Source of the DNA: Candidatus Hydrogenedentota bacterium
GTDB taxonomy: Bacteria; Hydrogenedentota; Hydrogenedentia; Hydrogenedentales; CAITNO01
Reading direction: 5' to 3'
Length of the DNA stretch: 64,000 bases
Assembly: GCA_903893795.1 (NCBI GenBank)
Contig: CAITNO010000034.1
Coordinates: forward strand, 1 to 64,000
In this document: positions 20,276 through 25,562 of the stretch, piece after piece
How positions within the stretch are numbered: position 1 is the stretch's first letter
Layout: the number at the start of each line of letters is the position of its first letter
The notes under the pieces: model-generated
Seen by the model: the letters and a program-made list of their open reading frames with translations, nothing else
Database searches by the model: none
Told to the model about the DNA's origin: nothing
Translations under genes and position numbers: made by a program

Positions 20276-20431
20276 TCAATCCTCTTCCTTCTCAAGAACG
20301 ACCAGAAAATCGTTGTAACTCTTGCCATGGTTGGCTGTAACAGACACCACCTTATAGCCTTCTTTCAGCAGGGTGTCCAACTTTTCCTTGCCAGAACCAT
20401 TGGATTCAATGATTAACGATATCTGCTTCAT
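20276..20431 (-). CDS. 51-aa protein, DUF4177-like
   Basis: MKQISLIIESNGSGKEKLD followed by LLKEGYKVVSVTANHGK and FLVVLEKEED. The combination of a GYKVVSV strand and a terminal LVVLEK strand resembles DUF4177-type small beta-alpha-beta proteins. Coding status rests on AGGAGG 6 nt before the ATG at 20431 and on the protein-like composition; it is hidden in a longer frame that starts far upstream. Divergent from lexA, with a candidate promoter at 20504-20533. Function unknown; an SOS link through the shared intergenic region is only a possibility. Confidence 0.75.
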   Translation of the reverse strand: MKQISLIIESNGSGKEKLDTLLKEGYKVVSVTANHGKSYNDFLVVLEKEED

Positions 20432-20541: not shown

Positions 20542-20572
20542 TTGACAGCAGGTGCATCCTGTGGTCTAATAT
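20542..20572 (+). promoter_or_regulatory. lexA promoter
   Basis: A perfect TTGACA at 20542-20547 and TAATAT at 20567-20572 with a 19-nt spacer (slightly long), 50 nt before the lexA ATG. The inverted repeat immediately downstream would lie over the transcription start. Confidence 0.6.
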
Positions 20573-20592
20573 AGCTGAAAAGAGATTCAGCT
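20573..20592. promoter_or_regulatory. Candidate LexA operator (AGCTGAA-N6-TTCAGCT)
   Basis: A perfect 7-bp inverted repeat with a 6-nt spacer directly after the -10 box of lexA. The core CTGA-N8-TCAG has the same arm spacing as the proteobacterial CTGT-N8-ACAG box. The position suits autorepression. The LexA site of this lineage is not known to me, so the assignment is inference from symmetry and place. Confidence 0.6.
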
Positions 20593-20621
20593 TAATTGTT
20601 TCAGTATACCGGAGAAAGACC

Positions 20622-21236
20622 ATGACACGAGGACTGACGTTGAGGCAGCGCGATATTCTGGAGTTCATCGTGCGCTGTGTCCGTGACAACGGCTTCCCAC
20701 CGACCATTGCGGAGATCGGCAACCGTTTCGGCATTTCCTCGACCAACGGCGTCAATGACCACCTTGTGGCGCTGGAGCGCAAGGGCTTTATTGAACGCTC
20801 CTCCAAGGCGCGCTCTATCCGGGTGACCGACCTGGCCGCCATTGACCTTTTCGAGGATGAGGCGGGCATGTTGCCCCTGCTGGGGCGCGTGGCGGCCGGC
20901 CAGCCGTTGATGGCCATTGAGAACGTGGAGGGACGCGTGGCCGTGGACGCGCAGTTGGCGCGGCGCAATGCCTTCTGTCTGCGCGTGGCCGGCGACAGCA
21001 TGATTGAAGACGGCATTCTCGACGGCGACATTGTGGTCGTGGACCAGGAAAAAACGCCACGCCGCAACGATATCGTTGTGGCCCTCGTGGAGGGCGAGGC
21101 CACGGTCAAGCACTACCACCCCGACGGCAACATTGTCGAACTGCGCCCGGCCAACGCCACCATGCGACCCATGCGCTTCCCCACCGACGACGTGGCCGTC
21201 CAGGGCGTCGTGGTGGCACTGCAACGGAAGTTGTAA
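20622..21236 (+). CDS. lexA: LexA repressor
   Basis: 204 aa. N-terminal winged-helix DNA-binding domain (LTLRQRDILEFI, FPPTIAEIGNRFGISSTNGV) and C-terminal S24 autopeptidase. The scissile Ala92-Gly93 lies in GRVAAGQP, Ser126 in VAGDSMIEDGI and Lys163 in EATVKHYHPDG, the standard Ser/Lys spacing. GGAG sits 8 nt before the ATG at 20622. It represses DNA-damage genes and is cleaved when RecA filaments form. An inverted repeat between promoter and gene suggests autoregulation. Confidence 0.97.
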   Translation: MTRGLTLRQRDILEFIVRCVRDNGFPPTIAEIGNRFGISSTNGVNDHLVALERKGFIERSSKARSIRVTDLAAIDLFEDEAGMLPLLGRVAAGQPLMAIENVEGRVAVDAQLARRNAFCLRVAGDSMIEDGILDGDIVVVDQEKTPRRNDIVVALVEGEATVKHYHPDGNIVELRPANATMRPMRFPTDDVAVQGVVVALQRKL

Positions 21237-21473
21237 CTGCGCTGCGTGCCGTGAAGTCTTGCGCGGAAAAACGGAAGGCACCACTGGTGCCCGCATTGTA
21301 ATTCCGGGCAGGGCGACCTTCCAACGGCAATGCAGGAACACGACTCCCGCTATACAAGCACCGATAAAAGGGGGTATAGTAAATTCCCATACGGCCTGGG
21401 TTCACTGCTTTTGTGCGAACTTGGACTTCGAATTAAGTCAGGCCGACGCCCCCCAAACAGGAGGAAATGCACC

Positions 21474-24400
21474 ATGCCGCAAAAATGTCTTGTAAACATG
21501 GGGATTGGAATGCTCATGGTGGGATTGCTGCTGTCGTTCGCCGCCACGGCGGCAACGATGGAGAAAGACACTCTTTCCACGGCGGCCATGCAGTACGGTT
21601 ACGGGGCGCTCACCTCGAATGTCGCCTACGCTGCCGATTCATCGACCTTCCTTGCCGGTTCGCGGGATGGCAAGGCGCGCATCTTCACCGTCAGCACGGG
21701 AGCGGTCGTTCGCACCCTTGCCGGGCACTCGGATGCGGTGCTGGCCGTGGCATACTCCGCCGACGGCACCCAAATCATCACCGGTTCCGCCGACAAAACC
21801 GCCAAGTTGTGGAACGCGGACACGGGCGGTCTCCTTTTCACCTGCACCGGGCACACAGATGCCGTCACCTCTGTGGTGTTTTCGCAAGATGGCACCCAGG
21901 TGCTCACGGGATCAAAAGACAACACGGCAAAACTGTGGAACACGGTAAGCGGCTTAATTGTCCGCACCTTCAGCGGGCACAGCGCCGCAGTCAACGCCGT
22001 GGCGCTCTCCACCGACGGCATCCTGGCGCTCACCGGTTCGGCGGACGGCACGGCCAAACTGTGGCCCCTGGCCACGGCCGTGGAAATCCGCAGTTTCACC
22101 GGGCACACGGAATCGGTTAATTCCGTGGCCTTCAGCGCCGATGGAAGCAAGGCGCTCAGCGCTTCGTCGGACAACACGGCAAAGCTGTGGGATACGGCGA
22201 CAGCTACGGAGCTTCGCTCCTTCTCCGGCCACACCGGGTCCGTCAACACCGCGGCATTTTCGTCCGATGAGGGGACTGTGCTTACCGGCTCCGGCGACCA
22301 CACGGCGAGACTCTGGAATGCCTCGACAGGCGTTCAGACGCTCACCTTCACAGGACATGCGGGTTCTGTGACCTCGGCAGTGTTTTCTTCTGACGGCACC
22401 AAGGTGCTTACGGGTTCCCTGGACAACACCATAAGACTGTGGGAGGCCGCCAGCGCCGCGACAGTTCAGTCGTTCAACGGTTTCACAGACCCTTGTTTCT
22501 CCGTGGCGTTTTCACCGGACGGAAGCCGGTTGCTCACCAGCGGCGGACAGGGTTGTGCCCCCGGTCAGCTTGGATGCGTTCTGTCAGGCCCCCCAAGGGG
22601 CGCCGCATTGCTTTGGAACACCGTGACCGGCAAGGAAACGCGCGCCTTTGCAGGACAGGCGGAGCCCGTGGTGTCGGTGGCGTTTTCTCCCGATGGAACG
22701 AAAGTGCTCGGTTCCTGGTGGGATGGTTCGGCAAGCCTGTGGGACGCCGTCACCGCCTCGGAAATCCTGCATTTCGCCGGGGAAACGGGCCTGATGAATC
22801 CCCTGGCGTTTTCGCCGAACGGAACCGCCGTGGTTACGGAATCTACACCGGGTACGGCGACCCTATGGAACGCCACCACCGGCGCCATTGTCCAGACCTT
22901 TACTGGACACACCCTCTACCTCTCGTCCGTGGCGTTCTCGCCCGATGGAACACAGTTGCTCACCGGATCGTGGGACAAAACAGCCAAGCTTTGGAACGCC
23001 GCCACCGGCGCGGAAATCCGCTCTTTCGCCGGACACAGTTCCGCCGTGTCGTCCGTGGCATTCTCGCCCGATGGCAAGCAGGTGCTTACCGCTTCGGCTG
23101 ACAAGACGGCCAAGTTGTGGGACGCCGGGACTGCCGGGGAAATCCGTAGCTTCGCCGGGCATGCCTCCGAAGTCAATTCCGTGGCGTGCTCGCCCGACGG
23201 AACGCAGGTGCTTACCGGGTCAGAGGACAAGACCGCAAAACTCTGGGATCTGGCCACAGGCGCGGAACTCCGCAGCTATGCGGGGCACCTGGCTGGAGTG
23301 CGCGCGCGCTTTTCGCCAGACGGCGCCCGGGTGATCACCGCATCCGCCGACGGCACGGCAAAGTTGTGGCCGGTCTCGGGACAGTCCGTTGATGTGTCCG
23401 TGCCCGATGTGGCGGGACAGACACAGTCCGCCGCGGTCGAGGCCATTGCCGCCGCAGGGTTGGCCAGCGGCCCGGTAACAACCCAATGCAGCGACACCGT
23501 GGCGGCGGGCCTTGTCATCGGCCAAAACCCCAATGCCGGACAGTCCGCACCGCTGGGAAGCGCGGTGACGCTTCAGATTTCTTCGGGCCCCTGCTCCGTA
23601 ACGGTGCCGGACCTGACGGGACAGACGCAGACGGATGCGGAAGCGACGCTTGCCGGACTGCATCTTTCCACCGGTGCGGTGACGCAGCAATGTAGCAACA
23701 CCGCTGCGTCCGGCCGGGTCGCACACCAAAGCCCGGCGGCGGGCAGCCTGGTGCCCCCCGGCGGCGGCGTGGGGTTGGTAATCTCCACAGGTCCCTGCAG
23801 CGTGACCGTGCCAAATGTGACGGGACAGACGCAGGCCGCGGCGGGCACGGTGCTTGGCAACGCAGGTCTGGCGACCGGTGCCGTGACCCTCCAGTGCAGC
23901 AACACCATTGCGGCGGGCCTGGTCATCAGCCAAAGCCCGCAGGCGGGCCAGCAGGCACCGTACGGCAGTGCCGTGGCACTGGTGGTGTCATCGGGCGTCT
24001 GCAACGTCAGCGCGCCCGACCTGGTGGGCAAAACCCAGGAAGCTGCAGCCACTGCGTTGACGACGGCCCATCTCACCGTGGGCGACGTGGCGCAACAGTG
24101 CAGCAACACCGTGGCGGCCGGGTTCGTGATCAGCCAGACCCCGGCAGCGGGAGAAGCGGCGCCCTATGGCAGCGGCGTGGCCCTGCTGCTATCCTCGGGA
24201 CCCTGCAACGTGACCGTGCCAAGTGTGACAGGGCAAACGCAGACGGCGGCAAGCGCCGCGCTCAGTGCGGCAGGCCTCCTCACCGGCCTGGTGAACCAGC
24301 AGTGCAGCGCCACCGTGGCATCGGGACAGATCATCAGCCAGACGCCCGCGGCGGGACAGGCGGCGCCTTACGGCAGCGCCGTGGCGCTTGTGGTGTCAAC

Positions 24401-25562
24401 CGGCGCATGCACCGTGACAACGCCGAACGTCGTGGGCCAGTCGCAGTTTTCGGCGACCGCCGCAATCGCCGCGGCAGGCCTGGTCACCGGCACGCTGACC
24501 GAACAATGCAACGCCACTGTGGCGGCAGGTCTCATCCTCAGCCAAACACCGGCGGCGGGCGGACAGGCCCCCATCGGAAGCGCCGTGGCGTTGACGGTAT
24601 CAACGGGACCGTGCAAAACGACCGTGCCCAACGTGGTTGGCCAGACGCAGACTGCGGCGGACGCCGCGCTCACCGGTGCCCATCTGACCCCCGGCGCCAT
24701 AACCCGGCTGTGCAGTGACACCGTGCAGGCGGGCAGTGTAATCGCACAGAGCCCCGCAGGGAACTCGGAGGCAATCGTTGGCAGCGCCGTTGCGCTGACA
24801 CTATCGGCGGGACCATGCAGTGTGACCGTGCCAAATGTGGCGGGACAGACCCAGTCCGCGGCAACGGCGGCAATAGCCGGCGTCCACCTGGGGGTTGCTT
24901 CGGTCGGCCACCAGTGCAGCGACAGCCTGGCAGAGAACCTCGTTGTCAGCCAAACCCCGGCGGCGGGCACAACGGTGGCCAACGGCGACACCGTAGTCCT
25001 GATGGTGTCCTCCGGACCCTGCAACCCGGCGGTGCCCAATGTGGTGGGCCAGCAGCAGGTTGCCGCGATGATGGCCCTGACCGCCGCGAATCTGGCCACC
25101 AGTTCCGTCACCGAGCAGTGCAACAATACGGTGGCGGCAGGGCTGGTGTTCCTCCAGGATCCGGCGGCGGGAACCGTCCTGCCTGCCGGCAGCACGGTCG
25201 CCCTGTTTGTCTCCACCGGCCCCTGCGAAGGCACCCCGCCGACCGAGGCGGAGCTCCGCGCGGCACTCGCCGCGGCCTTCTCCTCGGCCGACAGCAACGG
25301 AGACGGCACAGTCAGCTATGTGGAGGCGCTGGACCACCTGCCCGGGCTTACAGAGGCGGTTTTCAACGCGGTCGATTCGGACGGGAACGGCCAGATCAGC
25401 CTTGCCGAAGCGCAGGCGGGGTCGGGCAGTGGATGTGCGGGATGCTCCGGCGGCAAGTCGCTCTTCACCCCCGGAAACCTGAAGAAGTCTTTCAGCGACC
25501 TTTTCCTGGGAGCACTGAGCCTGACGATGCTCCTGGCTGCCTCAAAGGTAAAACGCCAATAA
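21474..25562 (+). CDS. Secreted WD40-PASTA-EF-hand protein with C-terminal sorting-like tail
   Basis: 1362 aa. AGGAGG lies 9 nt before the ATG. A signal peptide (about 1-28) is followed by 14 WD40 repeats (about 40-638; GHxxxVxSVAFSPDG...LTGSxDKTAKLW), enough for two seven-bladed propellers. Repeats 1 and 8-10 are degenerate, and repeat 8 carries a Cys-containing insertion. Nine PASTA domains follow (about 640-1250), each of about 68 aa with one mid-domain Cys (QCS/QCN) and one terminal Cys (GPC). An EF-hand pair comes next (DSNGDGTVSY, DSDGNGQISL). The end has GCAGCSGGK, a hydrophobic segment and a basic KVKRQ. Probably exported and anchored; ligand unknown, though PASTA domains in other proteins bind muropeptides or beta-lactams. 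Confidence 0.88.
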   Translation: MPQKCLVNMGIGMLMVGLLLSFAATAATMEKDTLSTAAMQYGYGALTSNVAYAADSSTFLAGSRDGKARIFTVSTGAVVRTLAGHSDAVLAVAYSADGTQIITGSADKTAKLWNADTGGLLFTCTGHTDAVTSVVFSQDGTQVLTGSKDNTAKLWNTVSGLIVRTFSGHSAAVNAVALSTDGILALTGSADGTAKLWPLATAVEIRSFTGHTESVNSVAFSADGSKALSASSDNTAKLWDTATATELRSFSGHTGSVNTAAFSSDEGTVLTGSGDHTARLWNASTGVQTLTFTGHAGSVTSAVFSSDGTKVLTGSLDNTIRLWEAASAATVQSFNGFTDPCFSVAFSPDGSRLLTSGGQGCAPGQLGCVLSGPPRGAALLWNTVTGKETRAFAGQAEPVVSVAFSPDGTKVLGSWWDGSASLWDAVTASEILHFAGETGLMNPLAFSPNGTAVVTESTPGTATLWNATTGAIVQTFTGHTLYLSSVAFSPDGTQLLTGSWDKTAKLWNAATGAEIRSFAGHSSAVSSVAFSPDGKQVLTASADKTAKLWDAGTAGEIRSFAGHASEVNSVACSPDGTQVLTGSEDKTAKLWDLATGAELRSYAGHLAGVRARFSPDGARVITASADGTAKLWPVSGQSVDVSVPDVAGQTQSAAVEAIAAAGLASGPVTTQCSDTVAAGLVIGQNPNAGQSAPLGSAVTLQISSGPCSVTVPDLTGQTQTDAEATLAGLHLSTGAVTQQCSNTAASGRVAHQSPAAGSLVPPGGGVGLVISTGPCSVTVPNVTGQTQAAAGTVLGNAGLATGAVTLQCSNTIAAGLVISQSPQAGQQAPYGSAVALVVSSGVCNVSAPDLVGKTQEAAATALTTAHLTVGDVAQQCSNTVAAGFVISQTPAAGEAAPYGSGVALLLSSGPCNVTVPSVTGQTQTAASAALSAAGLLTGLVNQQCSATVASGQIISQTPAAGQAAPYGSAVALVVSTGACTVTTPNVVGQSQFSATAAIAAAGLVTGTLTEQCNATVAAGLILSQTPAAGGQAPIGSAVALTVSTGPCKTTVPNVVGQTQTAADAALTGAHLTPGAITRLCSDTVQAGSVIAQSPAGNSEAIVGSAVALTLSAGPCSVTVPNVAGQTQSAATAAIAGVHLGVASVGHQCSDSLAENLVVSQTPAAGTTVANGDTVVLMVSSGPCNPAVPNVVGQQQVAAMMALTAANLATSSVTEQCNNTVAAGLVFLQDPAAGTVLPAGSTVALFVSTGPCEGTPPTEAELRAALAAAFSSADSNGDGTVSYVEALDHLPGLTEAVFNAVDSDGNGQISLAEAQAGSGSGCAGCSGGKSLFTPGNLKKSFSDLFLGALSLTMLLAASKVKRQ

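Follow-up and report, generated by a model that had tools for sequence, protein, structure and literature searches.

The window, by which we mean the whole 64-kb stretch of Candidatus Hydrogenedentota DNA that was analyzed, carries a lexA gene preceded by promoter-like hexamers, a palindrome, and a ribosome-binding site (Table 1). Judged from its sequence, the encoded protein is a canonical LexA. It matches the Pfam families LexA_DNA_bind (82 bits) and Peptidase_S24 (108 bits), both above cut-off, as well as NCBIfam TIGR00498 (202.5 bits; cut-off, 110.95), and all of its PDB matches are LexA or UmuD proteins. The motifs AAGQ, GDSM, and TVKH are present and align with PDB LexA, and by inspection Ala92-Gly93 was assigned as the putative cleavage site and Ser126/Lys163 as the putative dyad. 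The small reading frame divergent from lexA was seen, besides in its own genome, at 3 of 29 other loci, all from family f1.

Table 1. Features at the lexA locus, positions as in the window, and the helicase gene elsewhere in the window genome
Feature	Position	Strand	Basis
Reading frame of 51 aa, divergent from lexA	20276-20431	-	no Pfam match
lexA promoter -35 hexamer TTGACA	20542..20547	+	inspection; conserved spacing to box in relatives
-10-like hexamer TCTAAT, 17 nt 3' of the -35	20565..20570	+	spacing; similar hexamers in relatives by eye
Extended palindrome AGCTGAA-N6-TTCAGCT	20573-20592		around core CTGAA-N6-TTCAG
First arm AGCTGAA	20573-20579
Spacer AAGAGA	20580-20585
Second arm TTCAGCT	20586-20592
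Predicted LexA operator (SOS box), CTGAAAAGAGATTCAG	20575..20590	no strand	comparative counts at lexA
Possible third half-site TTCAG, 14 nt past the second arm	20600..20604	+	partly recurrent at lexA loci
Ribosome-binding site GGAG	20611..20614	+	inspection
lexA, 204 aa, LexA DNA-binding domain and S24 peptidase, helix STNGVNDHL	20622..21236	+	Pfam, NCBIfam, PDB alignment
Reading frame of 1410 aa after lexA	21330-25562	+	WD40-like, PASTA-like, and EF-hand-like repeats by eye
Hel308-like superfamily 2 helicase	window genome (G000) C15, L424:105-2783	-	NCBIfam and domain matches

An initial reading of the letters alone had placed AGCTGAA-N6-TTCAGCT directly after the lexA -10 box, and the palindrome does lie there: its core begins 4 nt past TCTAAT, and the lexA ATG follows at 20622. 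A strict promoter scan called no promoter at lexA because the scan demands an A at the second -10 position, which TCTAAT lacks. Across the loci compared, 25 of 30 have TTGA[CA] starting 33 nt ahead of the lexA box, and TTGA is found 28-36 nt ahead of it in 42 of 52 lexA regions. A third TTCAG, 14 or 15 nt past the second arm, is present at 11 of the 52 lexA loci, in families f1, f2, f4, and f11. The exact core CTGAA-N6-TTCAG has a single match in the window, where matches with up to two mismatches numbered 14 versus 17.5 expected from shuffled sequence. Since there is no such enrichment, the window alone proves nothing, and proof must be comparative.

Conservation of the box upstream of lexA

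LexA matches were obtained in 54 of the 60 genomes searched; the related genomes, G001 to G059, are all assigned to the taxonomic order of the window genome. We examined 52 lexA upstream regions first (30 + 22) and then that of G014. A box with at most one mismatch was present in 51 of the 52, 43 of them exact, and G014 added another exact box (52/53, 44 exact). Among the 52 regions, exact boxes occurred in 8 of 11 families and one-mismatch boxes in the other three; the sole region with two mismatches belongs to family f7. Boxes with at most one mismatch arose in about 1.1% of shuffled lexA upstream sequences and in about 0.6 to 1.1% of shuffled upstream regions overall. A random-window null was discarded because, for short loci, the windows could touch real boxes. 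Upstream regions of pgk, used as a control, had no box in any of the 30 best-scoring rows, the number to which the counts given below for the helicase, uvrA, recN, and dinB genes are also confined. A conserved palindrome lies at the lexA promoter, as is looked for in an SOS box.

Within the best 80 LexA loci listed, the 16 nearest (56-95% identical) come from Candidatus Hydrogenedentota assemblies except for three records, two named "uncultured bacterium" and one labeled Nitrospiraceae. Of the next 64 (43-53% identity), 56 are labeled myxobacterial or deltaproteobacterial and one Hydrogenedentota. The locus labeled Nitrospiraceae (L029, OTbin.67) has a Hydrogenedentota-like LexA, and one labeled Comamonas sp. 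KCTC 72670 (L055) has a myxobacterial-like LexA; in either case the label or the bin may be wrong.

Boxes at other SOS genes

Upstream of recA, a box with at most one mismatch was found in 42 of 48 genomes, including that of G037, a doubtful case in which the best-match rule chose a sequence upstream of the -35. Thirty of these 42 boxes read GTGAA-N6-TTCAG and seven ATGAA-N6-TTCAG; the recA box of the window genome is GTGAAAAGGTTTTCAG. All seven umuDC pairs examined have a box, five of them exact, and that of the window genome is CTGAACACTCTTTCAG; none was found when a box was looked for at a partial IMS row of G001. In imuA-imuB-type cassettes, which were named from RecA-like and weak IMS matches, a box was present in 9 of 11 and in a further 3 of 3 loci (12/14 together), and all 12 are exact. 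The imu-type locus of G059 has two exact boxes (L434:638 and L434:2044), before its RecA-like and IMS matches. Both of the imu-type loci without a box carry a second lexA. L205 and L206 are imuB-type loci that open with a second LexA, 38-39% identical, and have no phylum box; more generally, loci with a second LexA (38-41% identical; L205, L206, L207, and L209) had no box near the gene or cassette. The second LexA of L205 and L206 may read another operator.

For stand-alone dnaE2, 19 rows from the lower-scoring group were considered, of which two had no upstream sequence; among the remaining 17, which include two short ones, a box is present in 12 (9 exact) and missing from 5, two of those five with only a short upstream piece. 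Beyond these 17 rows, the dnaE2 of the window genome has CTGAATAAAAATGCAG directly before TATAAT, and the dnaE2 of G007 has an exact box. A box precedes dinB-type genes in 17 of the 30 best-scoring rows but not dinB of the window genome (L184), and recN had none either in its 30 best-scoring rows or in the window genome. The motif is shared by recA and error-prone polymerase genes, again as is looked for in an SOS box.

The sequence-only reading had proposed a scan for copies upstream of recA, uvrA, dnaE2, and imuB. Such copies were found for recA, dnaE2, and the imuA-imuB-type cassettes, but they are rare at uvrA: a box was found in only 5 of the 30 best-scoring relatives, and uvrA of the window genome has none. 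No imuB was detected in the window genome, which is 88% complete and in which only dinB and umuC were found. The outcome that would have spoken against that reading, an absence of the motif before other SOS genes, did not occur, as the window genome has boxes at recA, umuDC, dnaE2, and the helicase gene described below.

A Hel308-like helicase gene and the position of the box in promoters

A box was also found upstream of a gene for a Hel308-like helicase, in 29 of the 30 best-scoring rows (22 exact) as well as in the window genome. The best NCBIfam matches of this protein are ATP-dependent DNA helicase/Hel308 models, below their cut-offs, and it carries archaeal helicase domain 4 as well as an OmpR-type Trans_reg_C domain at its C terminus. 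Its first 496 residues have matches, a few of them weak, in 55 of the 60 genomes searched. Helicases of the Hel308-like type are known mainly from archaea and eukaryotes.

In 29 of 30 genomes, the helicase box sits exactly between -35-like and -10-like hexamers (TTGACnn-box-TATACT). The same layout was seen in 7 of the 9 imuA-imuB promoters tested, in 2 of 7 at umuDC, and in 1 of 30 at dinB, and in none at lexA (0/52) or recA (0/48). At recA, all 29 loci looked at have TTGA 26 to 40 nt ahead of the box, mostly 36 to 39 nt, so that the box falls after the -10, as it does at lexA. From these layouts we infer that control of the helicase and imu operons would be tighter than that of lexA and recA.

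The layouts also bear on whether the inverted repeat acts at the RNA level, forming a terminator or attenuator hairpin near the 5' end of lexA. A terminator scan does report AGCTGAA-loop-TTCAGCT followed by TAATTGTTTC, but the T run of that tail is poor, conservation is confined to the 5-bp arms, with the outer pairs and the loop varying, and at the helicase promoters the box, lying between the two hexamers, is upstream of the expected transcript. We rejected the hairpin on these three grounds and regard it as highly improbable.

Genome-wide searches in the window genome

The exact pattern has nine matches in the whole window genome (~7 Mb), versus two for a reversed control pattern. Three of the nine precede SOS genes, one precedes an ECF sigma gene, and at least two fall within long reading frames; with only three at SOS genes, the regulon is not defined by exact matches alone. 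Two models were made from hand-picked parts of the 93 distinct sites collected. R1 (54 sites) contained the window genome's own sites and was dropped as evidence; its place was taken by R2 (47 sites, none from the window genus), which was run on the window genome and two genus mates. In the window genome, where 150 of 683 first-look candidates were scored, R2 returned six sites at E up to 10, namely those of lexA, recA, the helicase gene, umuDC, dnaE2, and one ECF sigma gene, with weak E-values of 0.09 to 2.2.

The ECF sigma site (G000:C75:9379-9394; L426:1880) is an exact box 77 nt upstream of the gene, which is a possible further target. Elsewhere in the window genome, a one-mismatch box (G000:C11:26491-26506; L427) lies 25 nt before a gene for a DEAD-box helicase; the protein is related to TIGR03817, though below its cut-off, and also has an HRQ1-type winged-helix match. 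In G002, a perfect palindrome, CTGAATATATATTCAG (G002:C340:6771-6786; L431), has no obvious gene start adjoining it, and the largest frame nearby encodes an AAA_25 ATPase.

A chance palindrome would fit the genome-wide count taken by itself, as 7 Mb of sequence should contain a 10-base pattern several times and even the reversed control was matched. It does not fit conservation over 11 families and several gene classes, nor the lack of boxes at pgk and recN, and these comparative counts refute it, leaving chance a negligible probability.

Joint variation of LexA helix and lexA box

The recognition helix STNGVNDHL is found in 29 of the 52 Hydrogenedentota LexA proteins. In all four genomes of family f7, helix residue 7 is G, whereas in the other 48 it is D (47 genomes) or A (one genome). 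The lexA box begins with G instead of C in all 4 f7 genomes and in 0 of the 48 others, and in three of the four the recA box is GTGAA-N6-TTCAC. Three genomes, from families f3 and f2, have the helix residues AA or AI; their lexA boxes have a CTGT-type arm in 3 of 3 cases, versus 0 of 49 in the others. The helicase box of G018 (f3) is CTGTAAAAATATACAG, which we take to be the proteobacterial form of the box. LexA helix and lexA box thus change together in three lineages, by about three independent changes, which we regard as a lead. Other sites, however, run contrary to it. Whatever the helix, the recA box starts with G in 30 of 48 genomes; CTGT-type arms occur at dinB of G040 and dnaE2 of G001, both with the common LexA helix; and such arms are missing from the boxes that G026 (f3) has at recA, the helicase gene, and imu, and from the recA box of G018.

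This pattern is relevant to an alternative in which the box is the operator of another DNA-damage regulator that also controls lexA. In its favor, many SOS genes of Myxococcus xanthus are induced without direct LexA control (PMC9705874). Yet the box is at lexA itself in nearly every genome, its arm and frame are those of boxes bound by M. xanthus LexA (PMC9705874), and the lexA box tracks the LexA recognition helix in three lineages, a pattern not easily accounted for by a different protein reading the box. We consider control by such a regulator very unlikely.

Discussion

Taken as a whole, the comparative sequence evidence makes it very probable that CTGAA-N6-TTCAG is the LexA operator, or SOS box, of the phylum Hydrogenedentota, predicted to stand in an autoregulatory place at lexA. 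What was observed is where the conserved sites lie, which genes they precede, how they are placed with respect to promoter-like hexamers, and that lexA box and helix vary jointly. LexA binding, repression, induction, and cleavage are what we infer, and they might proceed as follows. The two recognition helices of a LexA dimer would each sit on one CTGAA/TTCAG arm. At lexA and recA, where the box is just downstream of the -10 and over or next to the start site, initiation would be blocked; at the helicase gene and most imuA-imuB-type operons, where it fills the gap between -35 and -10, polymerase binding would be blocked instead. Upon DNA damage, a RecA filament would promote LexA self-cleavage at Ala92-Gly93 through Ser126/Lys163, and the set derepressed would comprise lexA, recA, umuDC, imuA-imuB, dnaE2, and the helicase gene, together with dinB in many genomes and uvrA in a few.

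The proteobacterial LexA box is CTGT-N8-ACAG. Like that form, the Hydrogenedentota box is a 16-bp palindrome with CTG outer arms; unlike it, the fourth arm base is A instead of T. The sequence-only reading had described a 16-bp frame with arms other than the proteobacterial ones. Across the 93 distinct sites, 86 have A at position 4, and all 93 have T at the mirror position, 13. In families f2 and f3, some genes have boxes with the proteobacterial-type T in one arm or in both. Such a T on both arms was not found in the sites, save for one later site, at the G018 helicase, which has both.

The closest known box is that of M. xanthus LexA, given as CTRHAMRYBYGTTCAGS (PMC9705874), with which the Hydrogenedentota box has in common the 16-bp frame and the TTCAG arm. 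The helix STNGVNDHL, too, is present in all nine non-Hydrogenedentota LexA sequences inspected. Among 63 lexA upstream regions, mostly of myxobacterial or deltaproteobacterial label, 62 have GTTCAG at the best TTCAG site, and the first arm is degenerate; as these sites were chosen for TTCAG, only the preceding G and the first arm are informative. Unlike this type, the Hydrogenedentota sites have both arms conserved and A or T before TTCAG in 82 of 93. The regulons differ as well: in M. xanthus, only five genes are under direct LexA repression and recA1 lacks a box (PMC9705874), whereas Hydrogenedentota have boxes at recA, polymerase genes, and the helicase gene. The Hydrogenedentota box, as its sites and their genes suggest, is symmetric and would govern a canonical SOS set. 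The proposal that the palindrome is a lineage-specific SOS box is supported with a qualification: boxes are found at lexA and several SOS genes in most of the related genomes examined, but with the TTCAG arm and 16-bp frame of the M. xanthus box, they are less isolated than proposed.

Systems described for other phyla have recA and error-prone polymerases among their targets in common with Hydrogenedentota, but the operator sequences differ (PMC7739468, PMC8565304). The LexA operator of Balneolaeota is a direct repeat (PMC7739468), and the operators of Bacteroidetes are CTAA-N5-TTAG and GGA-N5-TCC, with a repressor described as not a LexA homolog (PMC8565304). In the literature searched, which covers only a minority of subscription papers, we found no study of LexA or the SOS response in Hydrogenedentota (or NKB19), and the string CTGAA-N6-TTCAG was absent. 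Papers naming LexA together with Hydrogenedentes were off subject by their titles and the start of their abstracts, and a word search of the main text of Hydrogenedentota genome papers returned neither lexA nor recA. Within that literature, no LexA box or draft SOS regulon appears to have been described before for Hydrogenedentota, and the present box is a variant of a known LexA-box type in a phylum for which no LexA study was found.

A recent paper explains LexA-box change between lineages mainly by gene duplication (PMC8565304). We give roughly even odds to a further proposal, that Hydrogenedentota preserve a natural series of helix variants with matching lexA boxes (STNGVNDHL with CTGAA-N6-TTCAG; STNGV[AV]GHI with GTGAA-N6-TTCAG, and TTCAC at recA; and STNA[AI] with CTGT-like arms), perhaps showing one SOS box turning into another, from myxobacterial-like to proteobacterial-like, without loss of the regulon. 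In the same proposal, the core of the regulon would include the Hel308-like helicase with its C-terminal OmpR-type winged helix, whose operator exactly fills the promoter spacer. The joint helix and box variants could be used to test directly how the LexA box of one lineage comes to differ from that of another, and the boxes suggest that a Hel308-like helicase may be a core SOS gene of a bacterial phylum.
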